Positions 3,383-63,932 of a DNA stretch of 64,000 bases are shown here, one piece after another. This stretch comes from Nymphaea colorata. Its lineage: Eukaryota; Streptophyta; Magnoliopsida; Nymphaeales; Nymphaeaceae. Numbering within the stretch: position 1 is the first letter of the stretch; every line of letters begins with the position of its first letter. Made by a program: the position numbers and the translations under genes. Where the stretch lies: contig NC_045147.1 of assembly GCF_008831285.2 (NCBI RefSeq), positions 19,224,581-19,288,580 on the forward strand. Direction: 5' to 3'. The notes below the pieces were generated by a model that did not search any database, was not told where the DNA came from, and saw only the letters and a program-made list of their open reading frames with translations.

Positions 3383-3782
3383 CCCGAATTTCCGTCCTTG
3401 ATCTACCTAAAGGGCTTCACCCAACTGACACCTAAGGTGGTGTGTGGGCGAGCAAACGAGAAGGGTAGCTTTATCACGGAAGGGACACGATGTCCAAGTA
3501 TACCAACTTGCTCGGCTCTTAGCAATGGTGGCATCCAGCTTAACTTATTGTGGCCACATTGGACAAAGGCTAGAGCTGTAGAATGCACCTCCAATTATTT
3601 GTGAAGCGTAGGCAGGAGAATAATTGGGGTTGGATGGATGGTACCCTCTTATCCATCCGTACTACATTTGTATGAAGTTTATACAGCTCATTGGTTACTC
3701 ATAAACCAATCAAACACACTCCATTTTTTTTATGTTATAAAATCTTCATCTACTCCCACCCTTATCTGTAGCCAATCACCCA

Positions 3783-4001
3783 AGTTAACGTCGCTTGGAA
3801 AAGATATCCCGGGTGATTAAATCTCGGATACCTTGTCCGGGTCCTTCGACTTTGAAGTTAACGTCGCTTGGAAAAGATATCCCGGGTGATTAAATCTCGG
3901 ATACCTTGTCCAGGTCCTTCTACTTTGAAGTTAACGTAGCTTGGAAAAGATAACCCGAGTAATTCAATCCAGATACCTTGTCCGAGTCCTTCTACTTTGA
4001 A
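3783..4001. repeat. 73-bp tandem repeat, three copies
   Basis: Three head-to-tail copies start at 3783, 3856 and 3929, an exact 73-bp period. Each begins AGTTAACGT and ends TACTTTGA or CGACTTTGA. Copies 1 and 2 are nearly identical. Copy 3 differs at several sites, for instance in the CCCGGGTGATTAAAT segment. No long reading frame runs through it. Confidence 0.9.
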
Positions 4002-13079: not shown

Positions 13080-13330
13080 TTGTTTGACAATAAGAACATG
13101 TCAGTGTTTCATAAATTTACTTGAAAATTGAGATAGATTGGTAAGACACATGTTTAAGTGTCATATAATATAGATTTATCTCAATTAAGAACAAGCCAGT
13201 GTTCCATAAATTTACTTGAAAATTGAGATAGATTGGTAAGACACTTGTTTAAGTGTCATATAATATAGATTTATCTCAATTTTGTGGCAGATTCATGAAA
13301 CACTGTCTTATTTGGTGCTGTCTAGGTAAA
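13080..13330. mobile_element. MITE-like element carrying an internal 95-bp tandem duplication
   Basis: Arms AGTGTTTCAT (13103-13112) and ATGAAACACT (13295-13304) are perfectly complementary, with weaker outer pairing of GTTTGAC and GTAAAC. Inside, a 95-bp unit occurs twice head to tail (13092-13186 and 13187-13281) with only a few differences. Each unit is itself a near-palindrome: AATTGAGATAGATT near its middle pairs with ATAGATTTATCTCAATT at its end. No coding sequence. Confidence 0.6.
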
Positions 13331-30140: not shown

Positions 30141-30498
30141 TGTAGTCAAGCAACATGATCATCTGTTGAAGTAAACATGTCAGCCCCAAATGTAAATATT
30201 GGGCGTAGTAGAATGATGAAGGGCATGTTTGACGGTGAAGGAGAAGGTCTAAGATGCCCCATCCCACGACCTTCTCTCCATCCTTTTTCTGTGACACCTA
30301 AAGGGGGGATCAGAATGTTGTGTATTCAAGCAACATGATCATCTGTTGAAGTAAACATGTCAGCCCCAAATGTAAATATTGGGCGTCGTAGAATGATGAA
30401 GGGCATGTTTGACGGTGAAGGAGAAGGTCTAAGATGCCCCATCCCACGACCTTCTCCTCCCTTTTTCTGTGACACCTAGAGGGGGGATCAGAATGTTG
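30141..30498. repeat. 180-bp tandem duplication
   Basis: Copy 1 (30141-30320) and copy 2 (30321-30498) are nearly identical. Both contain CAACATGATCATCTGTTGAA, AAATGTAAATATTGGGCGT, GGCATGTTTGACGGTGAAGG and CCCCATCCCACGACCTTCTC. Copy 2 is 2 nt shorter in the CTTCTCTCC stretch and has few substitutions. The high identity means a recent event. No long frame runs through it. Confidence 0.92.
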
Positions 30499-51012: not shown

Positions 51013-51530
51013 ACAGTACTTTAACCAGGGAGATCAAGTACGCACCTGGAAATATTCAAATTCGATGGATCAAGACATGTTTCAGGACCTTAACATTCAC
51101 ATTATCATCCTCTAGAAGTAGTTATATATGAGTGACGTTTTTAAGAACATCACGAAGACATATTACATCACGATAATGTCTAATATTATATAAAATTCTT
51201 AAAATTTTCAAAAAATGTTATTTTATATATTTATTTATTTTTTTGTTTCTTTTTTGGTTAAGAGATTTTGTACATGTTTTTGACTTCATCTTTGTAATCG
51301 GAAGAGAAAAAACTGATTTATTGGTTATAGAATTTCCATCCTTTATAATATTTTTGAATTTCTAATGCTGACAATATTAAAATTCCTTCTTAGTGTAATG
51401 TTTGTTGGATGAAGAAGCAGCACCAAGAAAATTGTGGAGCGTAGACCCAACCACCACTGGTCCTATGTAAAAGCGTGTCGTGAAGGGGACAGGACGGAGC
51501 TCTCGGGCCCAAGCACTCAAATTTCTTCCT
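51013..51530. repeat. 5'-flank duplicate, copy A (upstream of the receptor-like protein)
   Basis: This segment matches 63471-63932 in the same orientation over nearly its whole length. Shared words include AATATTCAAATTCGATGGA, CACATTATCATCCT, AACTGATTTATTGGTT, GTGTAATGTTTGTTGGA and GCAGCACCAAGAAAATTGTGG. Copy A has roughly 50 extra AT-rich bases near 51195-51260. It ends close to the receptor gene's TATA box, so it is the proximal promoter region of that gene. Confidence 0.88.
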
Positions 51531-51640: not shown

Positions 51641-51719
51641 GGTATAAGATTAGAGAGCTCCTCAGGTTGGATGCACTTTTACCTAATCCAGCGATCAAAG
51701 AGTGTTGTTGCATGCCATC

Positions 51720-54700
51720 ATGGGCCAAGGTGCTGCTGCAATTCCTCAGGCACCAAGTCCATTATTGCTATGCAGAAGCACCATTTTGTTTTTGGGTCTG
51801 TTGGTTATTGGTGTGGTATGTGCTTGGAAGGATGAAACACCACCACCACCAACAAGTACAGCAACAAGGGGAGCAGCTTCGAGGATCTGCCTCTCCAACC
51901 AGAGTTCAGCACTTCTTCAATTCAAGCAGAGCTTTCTCAACATTTATGAATTTTACCGACCTGATGCGCTGATCTCATGGCAGCGTGATGGATCCGACTG
52001 CTGTCACTGGAAAGGAGTTACTTGCAATAACCTCACTGGCTTCGTCATTGCATTGGAGATACCTGCTCCTGATTTTGGCGATGTGATCGCAGGTATCGCC
52101 GTTGACTCTTCCCTGTTCAAGCTTCGATATTTGCAACGTCTGGATCTCAGCTACAACCAATTGAACGGTGCCATCCCGAAGAGACTCGTGGAACTCACCC
52201 ACCTAACCCACCTCAACCTGTCCCATTGTGGCTTCTCTGGTCAGATCCCAGTAGAGCTGTCCCAAATGACACGATTGGTCTCTCTCGATCTCTCTTATAA
52301 TGATGGCCTACTACTCCAGCATCCTAATTTCTCACAGCTTTTCAGAGGCTTAGTTCATTTGGAGCACCTTCGACTGGATAGAGTTGACGTCTCCATGAGC
52401 TTAAGAGATGTAAGCATGAGCTTGTCGTCATCTCATGACCTGCAAACATTCAGCTTGTCTGGGTGTAATATTTCTGGTCCAATGGACGAATCACTTCTCC
52501 ATTTTCAGTCAATATCTTACTTGGATTTGGGGTCCAACAAACTTGAAAGTAGTATTGTTGAAGGTTTATGCTCGCTTGGGGACATCACTTCGTTAAGGCT
52601 TCGTGCAAGTTTCATGACCGGGCCAATTCCGCCATGTCTTTTCAGTCTTCCCTCTTTAAAGGAGTTGGACCTCGGTGGCAACCATCTCAACTCTGGAATC
52701 CCCAACCTGCAGCTCAGCCAGATCGCCTCCTCTCTGACTGAACTGGACCTAAGTGGCAACCGACTAACTGGGAGCATTCCCTCATCCCTCTTCAACCTCT
52801 CTTTTCTAGCAACACTAGACCTCAGCCACAATCTCCTAACAGAGAACATTCCTTCATCCCACTTCAATCTCCCTTTCCTAAAAAAAGTAGTCCTCAGCGG
52901 CAATAGCCTAACTGGGACCATTCCATCATGGCTTTTCAACCTCTCCTCCTTAGAAGAACTAGACCTCAGTAGCAACCGTCTACTTGGGATTCCCTCATCG
53001 CTTTTCAATCCAATCTCATCGCTAAAAACAGTAGACCTTAGTGATAATTTCCTAACTCGGAGTGTTCCCTTGTTGCTTTTCAACCTCTCCTCCTTAGAGT
53101 CACTAGACCTTAGCAACAACTACCTAACTGGGGTTCCCTCGGTGCTTTTCAACTCAAACTCCTCCTTAACAACACTAGACCTTAGTCACAACAGCCTGAT
53201 AGGCAGCATTCCTCCCTTCTTTTTCACCCTTCCTTCCCTGACGAAACTAAACCTCGGAAGTAATAAGTTCAGCGACCTGCTCGCCAACTTTGACAATAAC
53301 CTATACTCCCAGTACTTGGAAATCCTTCAGCTTGATCACAATTTTTTGAGTGGTGATATCCCTTCTTTCGTCAACAGGCTTCGTTCCGTGAAAAACATTG
53401 ACCTTTCTTCTAATTGTTTCAATTTTACCATTGATCTTTCCTTCTTTTTTAGTATCAAGGGCCTTTTTGCATTGGATCTTTCCAATAACACAAGGCTGAC
53501 AGTTGATTCATCTTATTCCAGTGACGATGCACAAGGTAGTTCCAAGGATTCTCCTGGGATTCGATCTTTAAAATTGAATTCTTGCAATATTCAGACTTTT
53601 CCTAGATTTGTCTGTAAACTTAGCAATCTTGTGTCTCTAGGGCTCTCCAACAATAACATTGAAGGGGAGATACCATTTTGCTTGTGGGAAGTTATTCATT
53701 TTGGTGGTCTGGATCTTGATCATAACAAGCTACATGGTTTTGAAGAGCCAGCCCAGGGGATTACAGGTTATGGCCTTTCGTACATGTCTGTCTCCAATAA
53801 TCGAATCCAAGGGGAAATTCCAACTTTCCTTTGCAATTTCCATGACGGGTGACATACCGGATTGCCTTTTTAAAAGCCTGGAAGTACTGAATTTGAGAAA
53901 GAACAAACTGGGAGGCCAAATTCCAGATCAATTCAAGGCAACATTTGTCTACTTTGTCGCCTTGAGTGACAACTTATTCACTGGCAAAATTCCAAAGTCT
54001 CTCTTCAATGGCTCATTTTTGAGGGTCCTGGATCTAGGAAACAACAAGTTGAACGACTATTTTCCTTCGCAGCTAGGCAAAATGAAAGAGCTGGAAGTGC
54101 TGATTTTGAGGTCCAACCATCTACATGGACCTATTACACAGCAAGAATTTCCTTGGTTAAAGATCTTCGACATATCTAGCAATTACTTTTCAGGGTATCT
54201 CCCACATGAGTTGTTTCGAGGTTTCAAGTCCATGATGTCAGGTACCCCGGAGCATAAAGATGAGTTAATTCAAATGGTCGGGAGGATCGGGATTTCGGGA
54301 CTAAATTTTCCACTGGAAGTGCTGAAAGTTCCACTCGAAGTGGAGGAAACAATCAAGGGAGAATATCGTTTGTTTAAAGAAGAGGTCAAGAAGGAGTTGA
54401 TTATCATAGACCTATCTAGCAATAATTTCACAGGCCAAATTCCTGAAGAGATAGGGTCCTTGACATCTTTATACGTATTAAACATTTCTAGAAACCATCT
54501 AGTTGGCTCCATCCCTGAATCATTTGGAAAGTTGCAGCAGATGGAGTCGTTAGATCTCTCTCACAACCAGTTATCTGGAGTTATACCAGAGGAGCTATCT
54601 GTACTCACATTTCTTGAAGTCTTGGACCTGTCATACAATGACTTGCATGGGATGATACCTCAAGGAAACCAGCTCAGTACTTTTCCGGCATCTTCTTTTG

Positions 54701-54996
54701 AAGGAAACCCCAAGCTTTGTGGACCACAGGTGAACAGATCTTGCTCTCATGCTGTAGGAGACGGCTCTCATGCTGGAGCAGATGGTCTGGTTGAGGAGGA
54801 AAACAAGCAAATAAAAGAGAAGGGATGGAAGTATGGATCAGTAGGATTCGGTTTTGCAGTTGGGTTGGTGATCACAACTCTCCCCTTCTTGTTCATGAAC
54901 AGAGCAGCAGATTGGTATCGGGATCGAACTGACAGGATGATAGACTTCATCCTTCAGTGGGTTTTCCCTTCTCGATTTGGTAGGCGTAGGCATTGA
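51720..54996 (+). pseudogene. leucine-rich-repeat receptor-like protein (RLP), broken by a short deletion
   Basis: Two frames cover one RLP. Frame A runs from ATG 51720 to the TGA at 53850-53852 (710 aa). Frame B continues from about 53842 to 54996. Frame A starts with a hydrophobic signal region (about residues 15-36), then the cap ICLSNQSSALLQFKQSF and DCCHWKGVTC, then many LRRs of about 24 aa. Frame B has further LRRs, NPKLCGP, an acidic spacer, one membrane span (SVGFGFAVGLVITTLPFLF) and a short basic tail with no kinase, as in Cf-type RLPs. At the junction GEIPTFLCNF meets TGDIPDCL only 37 nt later instead of the 72 nt of one LRR, so about 35 nt (the VLDLSNN part) are missing and the frame is lost. 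As it stands the first frame would give a secreted LRR protein without an anchor. Otherwise both frames are undamaged, so the lesion is recent or an error. The open frame upstream of 51720 begins only with GTG. Confidence 0.9.
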
Positions 54997-54999
54997 GCG

Positions 55000-55940
55000 G
55001 TCAGGTTCTCCTTCTCATGAATCAAGATCGGCTCCAGATTTCTGGTGCTAATGAAGTCCATCTCGGTTGGCAATGGCAATGTAAATTCAATAAAGTAAAT
55101 TCACTGAATCCTCCGATGGCGAAAAGCTAAATTTGGCCTTCACGAAAATGAAAGGCCTTTGTCGTACACTTGATCAAAGTGAACGTTACTTGTATGATTT
55201 AAAAATTAGAGATGCATAACTACGACCGTTCACTTTTCTCCTGTAGATGACATTCAGGGTGACGCCTTGTCACCCTGTTTCGTTTCTAATTGGAATCCCA
55301 CACAGCAGAATGCATGAGCTCGTGATTTGGTTTTAGAAATTGGGTTTGGGTCATGTCTGTAATATACAGAATGCTAAAAGTGAAAAAGGAAAAGAAAAAA
55401 AGGAACAACATTTTTTCACTTTTCAAAAGGGAAATGCAATTGCTTGTTCCATATGATCTCCACTAACAAGGGCACCGTTGATTGTTTTACTTTTTATCAT
55501 CATTCCTAATTGCAGATTTACTTGGATTAATAATCGTATTCACATGTATTGAGCTGTCTTAGAAATACGTCCAAGTGTGAAAACGGACAGAGATCAAATG
55601 AAGATCCCACTAGGATACATACAGAAATAATGGAATTCGCATATGTTGTGTCCAATAACTGACAGAAAGCCGATGAGGATCTGCCTAAATTTACATACAA
55701 AATGTTGGATCCAATCTGATAGCAACATAACAAGAAAGAACACAAAGGTTATGTTCTAGAAAATGTCTACAAGACAAGCAAATTTGAATAAGCGAATAAG
55801 AAAGCAGCAGTTTGAGCTGAGAAAACAGCAGTTGAAATTATCGAGATATTCCAAAACATCTAATCCCAACTCCAACTCAAGTCCACGCACTCCATGCAGT
55901 TCTTTAACTCCACGCAAGGATTCTCTTTGCGACGATCTAG
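55000..55940. other. sequence right of the receptor-like protein
   Basis: The first 200-300 bases are the likely 3' untranslated region. An ATG frame at 55763 (STRQANLNKRIRKQQFELRK...) has a basic, Gln-rich start but runs into the element at 55946 and shows no known domain; I treat it as unsupported. Confidence 0.4.
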
Positions 55941-55945
55941 CCAGT

Positions 55946-56107
55946 GGGGCAGCCACATCTGGGCTTAAAGATCTAAAATTTTCATGTTTCTTTATTTTGA
56001 AAATAATGTCTTCATTTATTTGCTCATTTTATATATACCGGTGCCCTTAAAGATGTAAAATTTTGTGAACCAATGCCCCTTATTCTAAAATCTCTAGCTC
56101 CGCCATT
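55946..56107. mobile_element. inverted-repeat element of the GGGGC(A/G)GAGC type
   Basis: The left edge GGGGCAGCCAC and right edge TAGCTCCGCC (reverse complement GGCGGAGCTA) resemble the edges of the elements at 12695 and 56494. The interior has TTAAAGAT(C/G)TAAAATTTT repeated twice. Non-coding. Confidence 0.4.
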
Positions 56108-56493
56108 GTTGTTTTGAAATATTTGATACCCGTCATAAACACTAGCTTCGAATTCAGAAAAGAAAACAGGAAGTCGTCAACATTCTCACTTTCACAAAAG
56201 GACGGACAATTAATTGCACTTTAATCCTTCTCCACAAACAAATCCACCAGAAAGAGAACTATTAGTTTACTTTCCTAATCATGATTTTAAGTCATATATT
56301 ATGCTTTGTGAATTGAAAGTGCGTTTACCCACTTTTTTCTAGAAAAAAGCAAGTATTATGGGAGAATGCAGGAACCGCGGACTAATTGATGCACCAATCT
56401 TGTAATTCTGGAAAAAAAAAATGGAACGCTAAAATAATAATTGGCCTCATAGATGGCTTACTTTTTAAAACTAATGGAGTTGCATGATCTACA

Positions 56494-56625
56494 GGGGCGG
56501 CATAAAAAAAAAAAAACATGTTTTCGCTTAGCCTTTATACAAATTTTGAAAAAATTTTGTTGGTTTCTTGTTAAAATTTTGAAATTATAGTTCAGCTCCT
56601 AATGAAAAATTATTGACTCTGCCCC
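56494..56625. mobile_element. inverted-repeat element of the GGGGC(A/G)GAGC type, abutting the 69-bp array
   Basis: The left end GGGGCGG and right end GACTCTGCCCC are partial reverse complements. The interior has AAATTTTGAAAAAATTTTG and AAAATTTTGAAATTATAG, matching the style of the sibling elements. Its right end lies 35 bp before the first 69-bp unit. Confidence 0.5.
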
Positions 56626-56660
56626 TATGTGTGAATTTATGGGTAAATGGGTAAAGAATG

Positions 56661-57557
56661 TTCTTATTTCATGTCTGAATAAGCTGAGACTCATTACTAC
56701 TCAGAGCCACTTATTTAAAATTCAAAAGGTTCTTATTTCATGTCTGAATAAGCTGAGACTCATTACTACTCAGAGCCACTTATTTAGAATTCAAAAGGTT
56801 CTTATTTCATCTCTGAATAAGCTGAAACTCATTACTACTCAGAACCACTTATTTAGAATTCAAAAGGTTCTTATTTCATGTTTGAATAAGCTGAGACTCA
56901 TTACTACTCAGAGCCACTTATTTAGAATTCAAAAGGTTCTTATTTCATATCTGAATAAGCTGAAACTCATTACTACTCAGAGCCACTTATTTAGAATTCA
57001 AAAGGTTCTTATTTCATGTCTGAATAAGCTGAAACTCATTACTACTCAGAACCACTTATTTAGAATTCAAAAGGTTCTTATTTCATGTCTGAATAAGCTG
57101 AGACTCATTACTACTCAGAGCCACTTATTTAGAATTCAAAAGGTTCTTATTTCATGTCTGAATAAGCTGAGACTCATTACTACTCAGAGCCACTTATTTA
57201 GAATTCAAAAGGTTCTTATTTCATGTCTGAATAAGCTGAGACTCATTACTACTCAGAGCCACTTATTTAGAATTCAAAAGGTTCTTATTTCATGTCTGAA
57301 TAAGCTGAGACTCATTACTACTCAGAGCCACTTATTTAGAATTCAAAAGGTTCTTATTTCATGTCTGAATAAGCTGAGACTCATTACTACTCAGAGCCAC
57401 TTATTTAGAATTCAAAAGGTTCTTATTTCATGTCTGAATAAGCTGAGACTCATTACTACTCAGAGCCACTTATTTAGAATTCAAAAGGTTCTTATTTCAT
57501 GTCTGAATAAGTTGAGACTCATTACTACTCAGAGCCACTTATTTAGAATTCAAAAGA
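56661..57557. repeat. 13-copy 69-bp tandem array with hairpin-forming unit
   Basis: Thirteen head-to-tail units start at 56661 and every 69 bp to 57489. Units 7-12 are almost identical. Units 3, 5 and 6 share CTGAAACTC, and units 3 and 6 share CAGAACC, so blocks were copied as well as single units. Within a unit TCTGAATAAG can pair with CTTATTTAGA (10 bp, one G-U), and directly inside it CTGAG pairs with CTCAG across an 11-nt loop, leaving a 5-nt bulge AGCCA. Each unit also carries GAATTC, except unit 1 with AAATTC. The forward frame is open for 318 codons from ATG 56627 to 57583 with a 23-aa repeat (VLISCLNKLRLITTQSHLFR plus IQK). Because 69 is divisible by 3, an open frame can arise by chance. 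Most differences between units change the amino acid, which argues against a selected protein. No spacers exist, so it is not CRISPR-like. Confidence 0.95.
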
Positions 57558-57559
57558 TC

Positions 57560-58620
57560 CGCGAAAAGTGCGATATCTATTAAAAGCTGACCGAGGAATT
57601 CTACGAGTAGCACTGAAATGGGGTCGATTTCCACATTATCCCAACTAGATGTGATTCTGGATCTTGTGCAAGTACCATATAAACCTTGATTTAGCAACCA
57701 GTATCTGATCCAAAGCGTGTGAAAACCTCTACCGTAATGTCTCAAATTAATGTAATTAGACATATAATTAGAGCGGGCACATTAAATTACAGCCCAATAA
57801 GAAACGTTGGGACGGTTCACTGCATGTAGAGTATACGTCGGGTAACCTATTCGTTATCCCATCCGAATGCATTAGTATTTAATTCCTTACTTTACAGAAA
57901 GTGCTCCGATCAAGGTATAAAGAGGATATGTTCCATCTATCTAAATCTTGATTTAAAAATACGTTTAAATTGGTTTTTTGTTTCTAGATAGTGCAAACTG
58001 ATTACAATCTCAAATACCAAGCGAAATGATGGTTCTTATAACTAAAAAACGCACCCAAAAAAAACATTTCTTTTAAATGTTTCATTGTCCTAATTCTTAA
58101 TTTGGTATAAATGTATCGTTGTAGAGAGAGAGAGAGAGAGAGAGAGAGGTGAGGATTTGCTCACTTGGAGTTGGAGAAAATTAATGATTGATATAGCAAT
58201 AAAAGTTGTGACATGGAAAAGAATGGTGCAAGCACCTACCATTTGACCATTTGATTCCGAAAATGATAAAAAATGAACATTATAATTCGACTCATTCTTG
58301 AGGTCGGGCTTGAAGAATGTGAGACACGTTTTAGATCATTTTTTTTATTAAATAAGACAACAAGAAAGTGGTGATAGATTATGAGAGAAAAAAAAAGGGG
58401 ATATTGAATCTTGAGAGAGAAAGAATTAATAAAATTGGAATGCATTGGAGAGAAGAAGTTTTTTAGATATAAAAGCAAATTGTAAAAACAAAATAAAAAA
58501 AATAAATATACTAGACAGCAGCACAATTAAGCCGAATAAGAAATGTAAGAAGGGAGTGGATAGATGAAGAGGAGTGAAAATAGTACTATAGCCAAAAAGA
58601 AAAGTAGAGATATCGTTTCT
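57560..58620. other. spacer between the 69-bp array and the RLP fragment
   Basis: AT-rich sequence with a (GA)n microsatellite at 58123-58149. No gene is supported. Minus frames at 58236-58526 and 58527-58772 are low-complexity (Phe/Leu/Tyr-rich) and show no domain. Confidence 0.5.
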
Positions 58621-58654
58621 ATATAGGGGACAAGATGCAGGTATGGTACGCCAA

Positions 58655-59145
58655 CCCTTGATTCATGGAACTCACCCACCTTGACCTGTTCTTTCGCCTG
58701 TTCTATGGTCAGATCCCAGTAGAGCTCGGCTCTCCCAAATGGCACACTTGGTGACTGCTTAACTGGAACCATCCCATCATCACTTTTCTCACTCCCTTCC
58801 CTTCCCTTCTTGGAGTTTACTAGACCTTGGGGTATAATAGGATCAGTGGTTCACTCCCTGAATTCTACAACCCAACTTCAACTTTGGAACAACTTTCAGT
58901 TTGGACATGTCAAACAATGCTCTCACAGGTGCGATACCTGATTGTTTTTACAACATGATCGGACTGGAGCTGAGAACAACTACAGGGACAAATTCCAAGT
59001 GGATTCATGCATATACAACTCGTCAACTTGAAAGGCAACTTTCTTACTGGCAATTTTCCAATGTCCCCCTCCAATTGGATAAACATCTGATTACTGATAG
59101 GATTAGAATTCACATTTCCTTACAATCTTCACAATCAATTTGACA
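58655..59145 (+). pseudogene. scrambled fragment of a second receptor-like protein gene
   Basis: Pieces match the intact-looking RLP in the same order but with large gaps. CATGGAACTCACCCACCTTGACCTG and GGTCAGATCCCAGTAGAGCT (58664-58724) match about 52188-52259. CTTAACTGGAACCATCCCATC (about 58757-58777) matches about 52908-52928. The plus strand then reads MDMSNNALTGAIPDCF from 58901, an LRR corresponding to the region missing from the larger gene. Stops and frameshifts lie between the pieces, and there is no signal peptide or membrane anchor. It is a dead remnant of a tandem copy. Confidence 0.75.
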
Positions 59146-59149
59146 TTTC

Positions 59150-62100
59150 ACTTTTTCTATTTGTTTGTTTGTACTCCGTTTAAGAGAAAAAGGAGAAGTA
59201 AGCGGAGCAACCAAAACTACAAGTACGAAAAAAAAAAATTTAAGATGTTAACCGGTTAGGCATGTTGGAGTAAATCAAGGGCGGGGACTGAGGGGGGCCA
59301 TGACCCTTCTCATATTTTCAGATTAATAAAATGCTACTTGTAACTTTTTAAAAAAATTAATTAAACTTATATAAAATTTTTGAAAATTATAATTTAATTC
59401 TTATATAAATTAATTATAAAAATTATAAGAAGATGTTTGAAGTATGATTTGATTGGATTGGTGTCAATAAACTTTAGGCGTGTATTCCATGAACAAACAA
59501 AAAAAGGAAATTTAAAAATTGAAACCAAACCAGCTTGCACCTCCATCGCTACTGTTGCCGACATGTGAAGGGGGGTTGGCGGGGTTTCGTTTGCATGTCG
59601 CAAGAGGACTCGGTCATCCCTCCGGTGGTCTGTTGTATGGATTGGTCCGGTTCGGCGTTTCAATCGCAATGACAAAAGACTTGTTTAGCTTCCAAAACCA
59701 ACATCTTTATATTTTCCCTCATGTATAAGATTGCCTTTGAAATGGAAGGTTTGAAGATTATCACACTTAAAAACAGTACAGCGGACAAACGTTTGGCGGC
59801 TTTTATCTACACTTTTAAATTCCTCTTGTTCTTTTTAGTAGACGGGCATCGCTTAGCACCCAGGTCAATGCATGCCTTAAAAAGATTCCGACCATCTCCA
59901 TACTCTAGTAGGTTCGTGCCATGCAAAACAAGACAATTCGAGTTCAATTTGAATAATCTTCTGAATGGACCCGATTAGCTGCATGCTTGATCTAGATCTG
60001 AAGACCTTGCGAAATGTAGTAGCTCGATGCCTGGATTCCCTAAAATTATTTACACAAGAAGAATATTGTCTGGGAGAAAATTGATTAACCAAATTATACT
60101 TGGATTTTTCTAAACCAATATAAAACATCTTAACTTCTTTAGTTTTAAAATAAAAATAAGGCAATGCAGGTCAACATGCAAGGGTTTATTCTGGCAGCCA
60201 GCCAACTAGGGGACAGAGTCAGGAGATTTTTTCTTATGGAGCTCAATCTTTTAAAATCTTTATCGAGGCCAAATTGTGTTTTTGAAAATTCTTAAACGGG
60301 TGAAATAGTCGTCCGACAACAAAGGTTGGTTGAGAGGGCTGCTTGAAGGAAGGAGAAAATGGCGTAAAGAATGGGGAATGCTGAATCAGATGATTGACAT
60401 CTGCAGTGAATTGATACCGCTTTAGGTGTGTGGGGGGCTGTCTGCTGCTCAGGAATGGAGGCTCAAATAATAGGTTCATAGATGCCAGCACGAAGTGAAG
60501 GAGGTTTCTTCATCAATATGTTAATGGTTTTCATAGTGTCAGGGATGCTGGGTGAGGGTATCCAGGATTCAACTACTTTATTCTGATGTCCCTATATAGG
60601 TTTAAAATGCAGCTCTGATGCAGGCACGAAGTGAAGGAGGTTTCTTTATTTCTGTTGTCCGTATGTATAAGTTCCTTTTGGTGCGGCTCTGATTTTGATT
60701 GTTGTGGTGAGCTGAAAAAGCTGCTCCCTGTACATATCAATTTTTTGACAGTGAGAATGTGACCAGAAGGCTCTGCAGGCCCTACAAAACCTCAAGCTCA
60801 AAATCCTACCCTGTTTATTCTGACAACTCGACTGAATACAACGCTCTCCTTGGCATTCATTAATCTTCTTTTTGTTCCTATACAGAAAAAGATGAAAATC
60901 CTTTCAGATGCACTTCGTTTGGGAACTGAAATGAAGCGCCATGAAATTCTGCTTCCAATCAGCATGCAAGTTAGAATCTTGATCGAAATATTTACACCCA
61001 ACCAGCCATGGAAAATCGTGGTTACATGCATCCAATATGCAGATGCATATTTTTAACCCTTCAACTAAACCTGGTGAATGATATGAAATTTACAGGTAAC
61101 TTGGAAGAAAATATGGCGAGAGGAACAATTTCACGATTATGAGAAAAGCACGCAGCAGTCGAGCCAAATATGTATTAGCACTCAGCATTTCATTGCGAAA
61201 CCTATTGTGCCTTACAGATCAGACACAATTTGCCGAAGTAGCTGTCGACGACTGAGATCTGTAAATTAACGTTAGCTTTTACCAAGCTGCTTGTTGCAGT
61301 TGCTTTATTCCCCAAGGAAGGAGACGGAATTGGACTCAGTTGCAAAAGGGCACACTAGTGAATCTGAATTTGACTTGCTGGTGATCTGAATATTCTTAAT
61401 ATGATTTGAATATTCATGTTTTTTTTTTGGTTGGGTACTTGCCTGTCCACTGAGATTATAAATGTCAAGTCCAATTCGACTAACGAACATATAGGGATAT
61501 GATTATTGGGGTTCACAGTTGCACTAAATCCAAGATAATTTACGAAACCTCATGACACTTGACTCCACTCTCTGTTAGGATATCCTTACAACTTCGTAAG
61601 CGATGCTTTTCTATGGCCTGTTCAAGAAACTCACTAACTCACATTAACCGCAATGGATATAACCAGGAAAATCAACTTAAGACAAGAATTTTACTACGTT
61701 AAGACGAAGTTGTAACCTGAATACAAACTCGATCCCATTTGAAATGCTTATCTATATGAGTGAGTGGGGCAATTTATCAAATCCACTTCTGATTCAAAAT
61801 TATTTTCATATAGCGATCCAAACTACTGCAGAAATGAAGGTCCCTATTGGCCGATATATGTTTCAATGAAAGAGGAAAATGAACAAACAAAAGTGAAAAA
61901 GGGTTAGGAATATAAAGGCAACAATTCAATCGAGCTGGCCATAAGAACAGTATGCGGAGATGAATGAGGGCAAAAAAGTTCAATCAAACCGATGTTGGGA
62001 ATCGATCCCAATCTGGGTTTGATCCACTTTTGTTATTAAAAAAGAAAGAACATGTTACTTTGTTATGACTTCAAATTTAGGTGGTCACATTTCTATTATT

Positions 62101-63470: not shown

Positions 63471-63932
63471 ACAGCACTTTAACAAGGGAGATGGAGTACG
63501 CACCTTGAAATATTCAAATTCGATGGACCCAGACATGTTTCCGGACCTGAATCTTCACATTATCATCCTGCAGAAGTAGTTAAATATGAGTGACATTTTT
63601 AAGAACAACACAAAGACAGATTACATCATGATAATGCCCAATATTCTTTATTTTTTCTTTTTTGGTTAAGAGATTTTATATATGTTTTTGACATCATCTT
63701 TGTAATTGCAAGAGAAAAAAACTGATTTATTGGTTGTAGACTTTCCTTCCTTTATAATATTTTTGAATTTCTAATACTGACAATATTAACATTCCTTCTG
63801 AGTGTAATGTTTGTTGGACGAAGGAGCAGCACCAAGAAAATTGTGGAGCCTAAACCCAACCAGCACCGGTCCTGTGTGAAAGCGCGTCATGAAGGGGATG
63901 GGACGGACCCTAGGACTCAATTTTCTGATTGC
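63471..63932. repeat. 5'-flank duplicate, copy B (right edge of the window)
   Basis: This is the second copy of the RLP 5' flank at 51013-51530, same orientation, about 12.4 kb away. Similarity stops at about GGACTCAA (63925), just before the point where copy A reaches its TATA box and start codon. The last 68 bases of the window look unrelated, so either the next RLP copy starts beyond the window with a different leader, or only the flank was duplicated. Confidence 0.85.

Follow-up and report, generated by a model that had tools for sequence, protein, structure and literature searches.

The array of 13 head-to-tail units of 69 bp (897 bp) at positions 56660-57556 of the window (unstranded) is, with high confidence, a recently expanded, probably neutral minisatellite restricted to a single locus, for which neither a protein nor a structural RNA is proposed. 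The window is the whole 64,000-nucleotide stretch of Nymphaea colorata DNA analyzed here (positions 19224581-19288580 of its contig). That the array gives rise to transcripts whose hairpins enter small-RNA production, or that its frame is translated as a newborn repeat protein, within a cluster of immune-receptor genes, is in our estimate very improbable.

Structure and genomic distribution of the array

A single strong array was detected by TRF at this position, with a period of 69, 13.0 copies, 98% matches, 0% indels and a score of 1724. The 13 units of exact period described in the original prediction are borne out by this result, and the array itself is confirmed, although it starts one base earlier, at 56660 and not at 56661. 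According to the unit table, the consensus sequence is matched exactly by units 2 and 7-12, and the remaining six units depart from it at 10 points in all, one of these in unit 13; the differences are of 7 types. The last seven units had been described as nearly identical, and they are: units 7-12 are the same and only unit 13 departs from them, by its one change. Recent expansion or homogenization, as had been suggested, is supported.

The genome assembly was searched in full (407.8 Mb, 783 contigs) with DNA searches that pass over very common words. The whole array matches itself alone. One unit, used as a query with E up to 10, gave 13 matches, all of them within the array, and a 30-base core of the unit, with up to 3 mismatches, was found 13 times in forward and 0 times in reverse orientation, again exclusively within the array; the reversed core, searched in the genome as a control, gave 0 matches. 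The genome search for the 69-bp unit, which had been proposed together with the original prediction, thus places it at one locus in this assembly, and a dispersed satellite family was ruled out on the ground that whole array, unit and core match here alone. Within the 144-kb cluster no second 69-bp array was found among TRF arrays with a period of at least 8 and at least 2.5 copies. A search of the window with the unit at E 1 gave 14 matches, every one of them in the array and none outside it, and no similarity to it rises above shuffle level in 50-64 kb. Six subsequences of the unit occurred in none of the papers searched, and this repeat is not reported in the titles and beginnings of abstracts that were surveyed. 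Other tandem repeats detected by TRF in the window are a 73-bp repeat in three copies at 3782-4001 and two-copy duplications of 180 and 95 bp at 30141-30498 and 13091-13281, respectively.

Minisatellites have units of roughly 10-100 bp. The present units stand head to tail, and the lengths of unit and array lie within the range of minisatellites; the array is a minisatellite, a known kind of repeat. Arrays from about 0.5 kb to several kb long are described in passages of a sugar-beet study (PMC2820488). As far as those passages go, the BvMSat families of Beta vulgaris share with the present array the head-to-tail tandem units, the range of array length and the lack of a G/C-rich core (the present unit has 23 G+C of 69). 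They differ in that the BvMSat families are dispersed over the chromosomes whereas the present array occupies a single locus, and in that BvMSat05 has a palindrome beside its arrays whereas the palindrome of the present array lies inside the unit (PMC2820488, in the same passages).

The receptor-gene cluster around the array

To the left of the array lies a copy of a receptor-like-protein gene with leucine-rich repeats (LRR) at 51702-54996 on the plus strand, recognized by its ORFs (51702-53852 and 53659-54996) and by Pfam matches to LRR_8, LRR_1 and LRRNT_2. Its two halves are in different, overlapping frames; judged by coordinates, each of the next two receptor copies has its matching pieces in a single frame, unlike the fourth copy. 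Related long LRR copies were located at genome positions 19293624-19296914, 19310038-19313169 and 19319005-19322336, along with further distant pieces. A decayed receptor-gene fragment follows to the right of the array at 58660-59077 (plus strand), where 58660-58681 matches 52183-52204 by blastn and local alignments within 58834-59077 reach four copies of the cluster. A "decaying receptor-gene cluster" is therefore a fair description of this spot, with its LRR receptor copies and fragments. A stretch upstream of the receptor gene, 51013-51498, is repeated about 12.4 kb away at 63471-63907, the two being 87-91% alike.

The neighboring receptor gene has 72-bp LRR-coding tandem repeats of its own, which resemble the array in period, in lying in the same cluster and in a leucine-rich translation. 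However, they differ from it in a period of 72 and not 69, in 71-74% matches as against 98%, and in being coding. An origin of the unit from an LRR gene was rejected since it has no DNA similarity to the receptor genes in the window.

On the left side of the array there is also a short repeat, dispersed in the genome and weakly inverted at its ends, at 56493-56626 (unstranded), the 17-nt arms of which, 56493-56509 and 56610-56626, are 71% complementary. The small inverted-repeat element noticed earlier does exist; its distance from the array is 33 bp, not 35 bp. The region of about 56502-56630 (query 403-531), a dispersed repeat of about 100 bp, has at least 39 further genomic matches (42 in total, with 40 of 325 candidates scored). 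Spacers of the cluster that lack the array align across all or most of this repeat. Thus, it appears to be older than the array, and the short distance between the two does not indicate that they are linked.

Array-free paralogous spacers and the origin of the array

A genome search with the left flank, 56100-56660, revealed two long paralogues, at genome positions 19304461-19304977 (88%, query 7-510) and 19314983-19315294 (78%, query 253-553). These belong to paralogous receptor-gene spacers without the array, located 23 and 34 kb downstream, from which two 6-kb stretches, L030 and L031, were aligned. In L030, the match to the left flank ends at 1978 (window 56609) and the receptor fragment starts at 1998 (window 58658). 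In L031, the left-flank match extends to 2295, and the receptor fragment comes next, at 2323 (window 58668). Both spacers lack the array and, jointly with it, the right flank of about 1.1 kb at 57557-58650 (unstranded), of which the 144 kb of the cluster hold no second copy at E 0.01. When the array was compared with L030 and L031, the only matches among those listed were to one site of 18 nt in L031 (2293-2310, 94%), made up of the opening 17 bases of a unit plus the G before them. The beginning of unit 1, about 17 bases at 56660-56676 on the plus strand, is accordingly present once in this spacer, as seen in both the match and the alignment. The unit thus starts in old spacer DNA, and the array is confined to this copy of the spacer. 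It is most likely that the array grew in place. As judged from the alignments, the joint absence of array and right flank may reflect either a gain of about 2 kb in this copy or a loss in the ancestor of both paralogues, and an insertion that brought in most of the first unit is possible.

Such an insertion could also be a mobile element, spanning about 56677-58650 (about 2 kb) and carrying the array at its left end as internal or terminal tandem repeats. This explanation would fit the observation that in both paralogous spacers the receptor fragment follows upon the left flank, with neither array nor right flank in between, but the absence is explained equally if the ancestor of these spacers lost the stretch, and the unit and its 30-base core were found nowhere else in the genome. 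Nor did a search for an element bounded by repeats around the array give anything above the best shuffle: when flank 54996-56659 was compared with flank 57557-59600, inverted matches reached a score of 26 (60 shuffles: mean 25.7, maximum 34) and direct matches one of 31 (60 shuffles: mean 26.0, maximum 33). We therefore regard a mobile element as unlikely.

For growth in place, a plausible course of events can be outlined. In the passages mentioned above from the sugar-beet study, slippage between short repeats is put forward as a likely origin of plant minisatellites, and so are palindromes (PMC2820488). Here the unit ends in ...AAAAG, and the motif AAAG stands a few bases left of the array, at 56653-56656. 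A tandem duplication would have joined the end of the unit to its start, the first duplication perhaps being guided by this AAAG. Slippage or unequal exchange would then have enlarged the array, latest in units 7-12, and the imperfect palindrome in the unit may have aided slippage of the polymerase, although it would not be required. Elsewhere in the left flank, 0.3 kb from the array, a perfect palindrome of 18 nt lies at 56332-56349, with a score just above the best of 60 shuffles.

Coding and folding potential of the repeat

The plus strand is open from 56606 to 57583 (325 codons from stop to stop), and the frame of 318 codons that had been reported is found when counting from the first ATG (56627-57583, plus strand, 318 aa). 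We judge this frame not to be a gene on the basis of chance controls. The period is a multiple of 3 (69 = 3 x 23), so that one open frame is to be expected by chance: among 5000 shuffled units, 58% have one or more of the six circular frames open, and among 5000 69-mers from the window 86% do. No unit contains a stop in the open frame, which tells little because only 11 of the 207 possible single changes create one. The 7 types of change among the units comprise two silent ones and five that replace an amino acid (R to K at two sites, C to S, C to Y, S to N), so that the earlier tally is correct. All possible changes comprise 149 replacing, 47 silent and 11 stops, and transitions alone 41, 26 and 2. 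An excess of silent over replacing changes was not found in this small number, and the changes are compatible with neutrality, seven types being few for any test.

The frame could nevertheless be imagined as a protein of 23-aa leucine-rich repeats, perhaps derived from the neighboring LRR receptor. It runs uninterrupted through all 13 units, and phmmer against PDB gave three chains at E 1 or lower, of which 6lx0_A scored best (E 0.00044), with a weak match and an LRR-like alignment. However, when 23-aa units were shuffled and repeated 13 times (n = 4), the best E values were 0.02, 6.8e-18, 0.0011 and 6e-7, so that two of the four controls beat the real frame, and in three of the four the best match was a chain named LIC..., which we take to be LRR proteins of Leptospira. 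The match to 6lx0_A mirrors composition and period. In Pfam, the translation matched two families at E 0.0011 each, below the cut-off and with no passing stretch, and neither is an LRR family. The lack of any match to the unit elsewhere in the window and the neutral level of replacing changes also speak against a repeat protein, which was rejected because two of the four shuffled-unit controls score better and the changes look neutral; we consider it hardly credible. The preference for a non-coding repeat in the original prediction is supported by the same controls and changes.

The other function to be considered is that of a structural or small-RNA locus, at which a transcript of the array would fold into a string of hairpins and be processed into small RNAs, with the receptor cluster as their possible target. 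The stem of 10 + 5 bp with an 11-nt loop, attributed earlier to each unit, is indeed the predicted fold of one plus-strand unit, and every plus-strand unit can form such a stem-loop, but the inner stems are weaker or altered in some units. A single plus-strand unit is predicted to fold at -12.6 kcal/mol (z -1.72), 10 of 200 shuffles being as good, and a minus-strand unit at -11.9 kcal/mol (z -0.40; 61 of 200). Folds as good as that of the plus-strand unit are predicted for 30% of 2732 69-mers of the window and for 8.8% of the 678 GC-matched ones. The proportion of sequences with a 10-bp stem of 9 Watson-Crick pairs is 5.5% among 200 shuffles and 7% among 300 69-mers of the window, which is borderline. 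Thus, the lone unit stands modestly above shuffles, but the tandem array does not: with four units, 35% (plus) and 25% (minus) of 300 shuffled arrays each fold equally well. The hairpin, then, does not mark the array as special, and when the whole plus-strand array is folded, only 6 of the 13 units retain 8 or more of the 10 outer pairs. The original prediction held that folding no better than shuffled sequence, together with a lack of transcripts and small RNAs, would reduce the array to a plain minisatellite, and as regards folding it does reduce to one.

The pattern of changes points the same way. The stem positions, 30 of 69, take 4 of the 7 change types (unit positions 16, 25, 29 and 59); two retain a G-U pair, two break a pair and 0 are compensated. 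The changes do not steer clear of the stem. As modeled here, the hairpin is a predicted but mild one, with no sign of maintenance. Rfam gave no match at gathering score in 50-64 kb, and nothing similar to the unit was found in the receptor genes of the window, on which small RNAs might act. A hairpin RNA was rejected on the tandem shuffles and the lack of an Rfam match, and a small-RNA locus of the kind modeled above would be most surprising.

Significance

The array is of little importance in itself. It serves as a caution that in a tandem array neither the length of an open frame nor the recurrence of a hairpin is more than weak evidence of function. If its copy number varies, its length could be used to mark the receptor cluster. 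It also illustrates, on a small scale but clearly, a young minisatellite for which an array-free paralogous spacer still shows part of the sequence from which it started.
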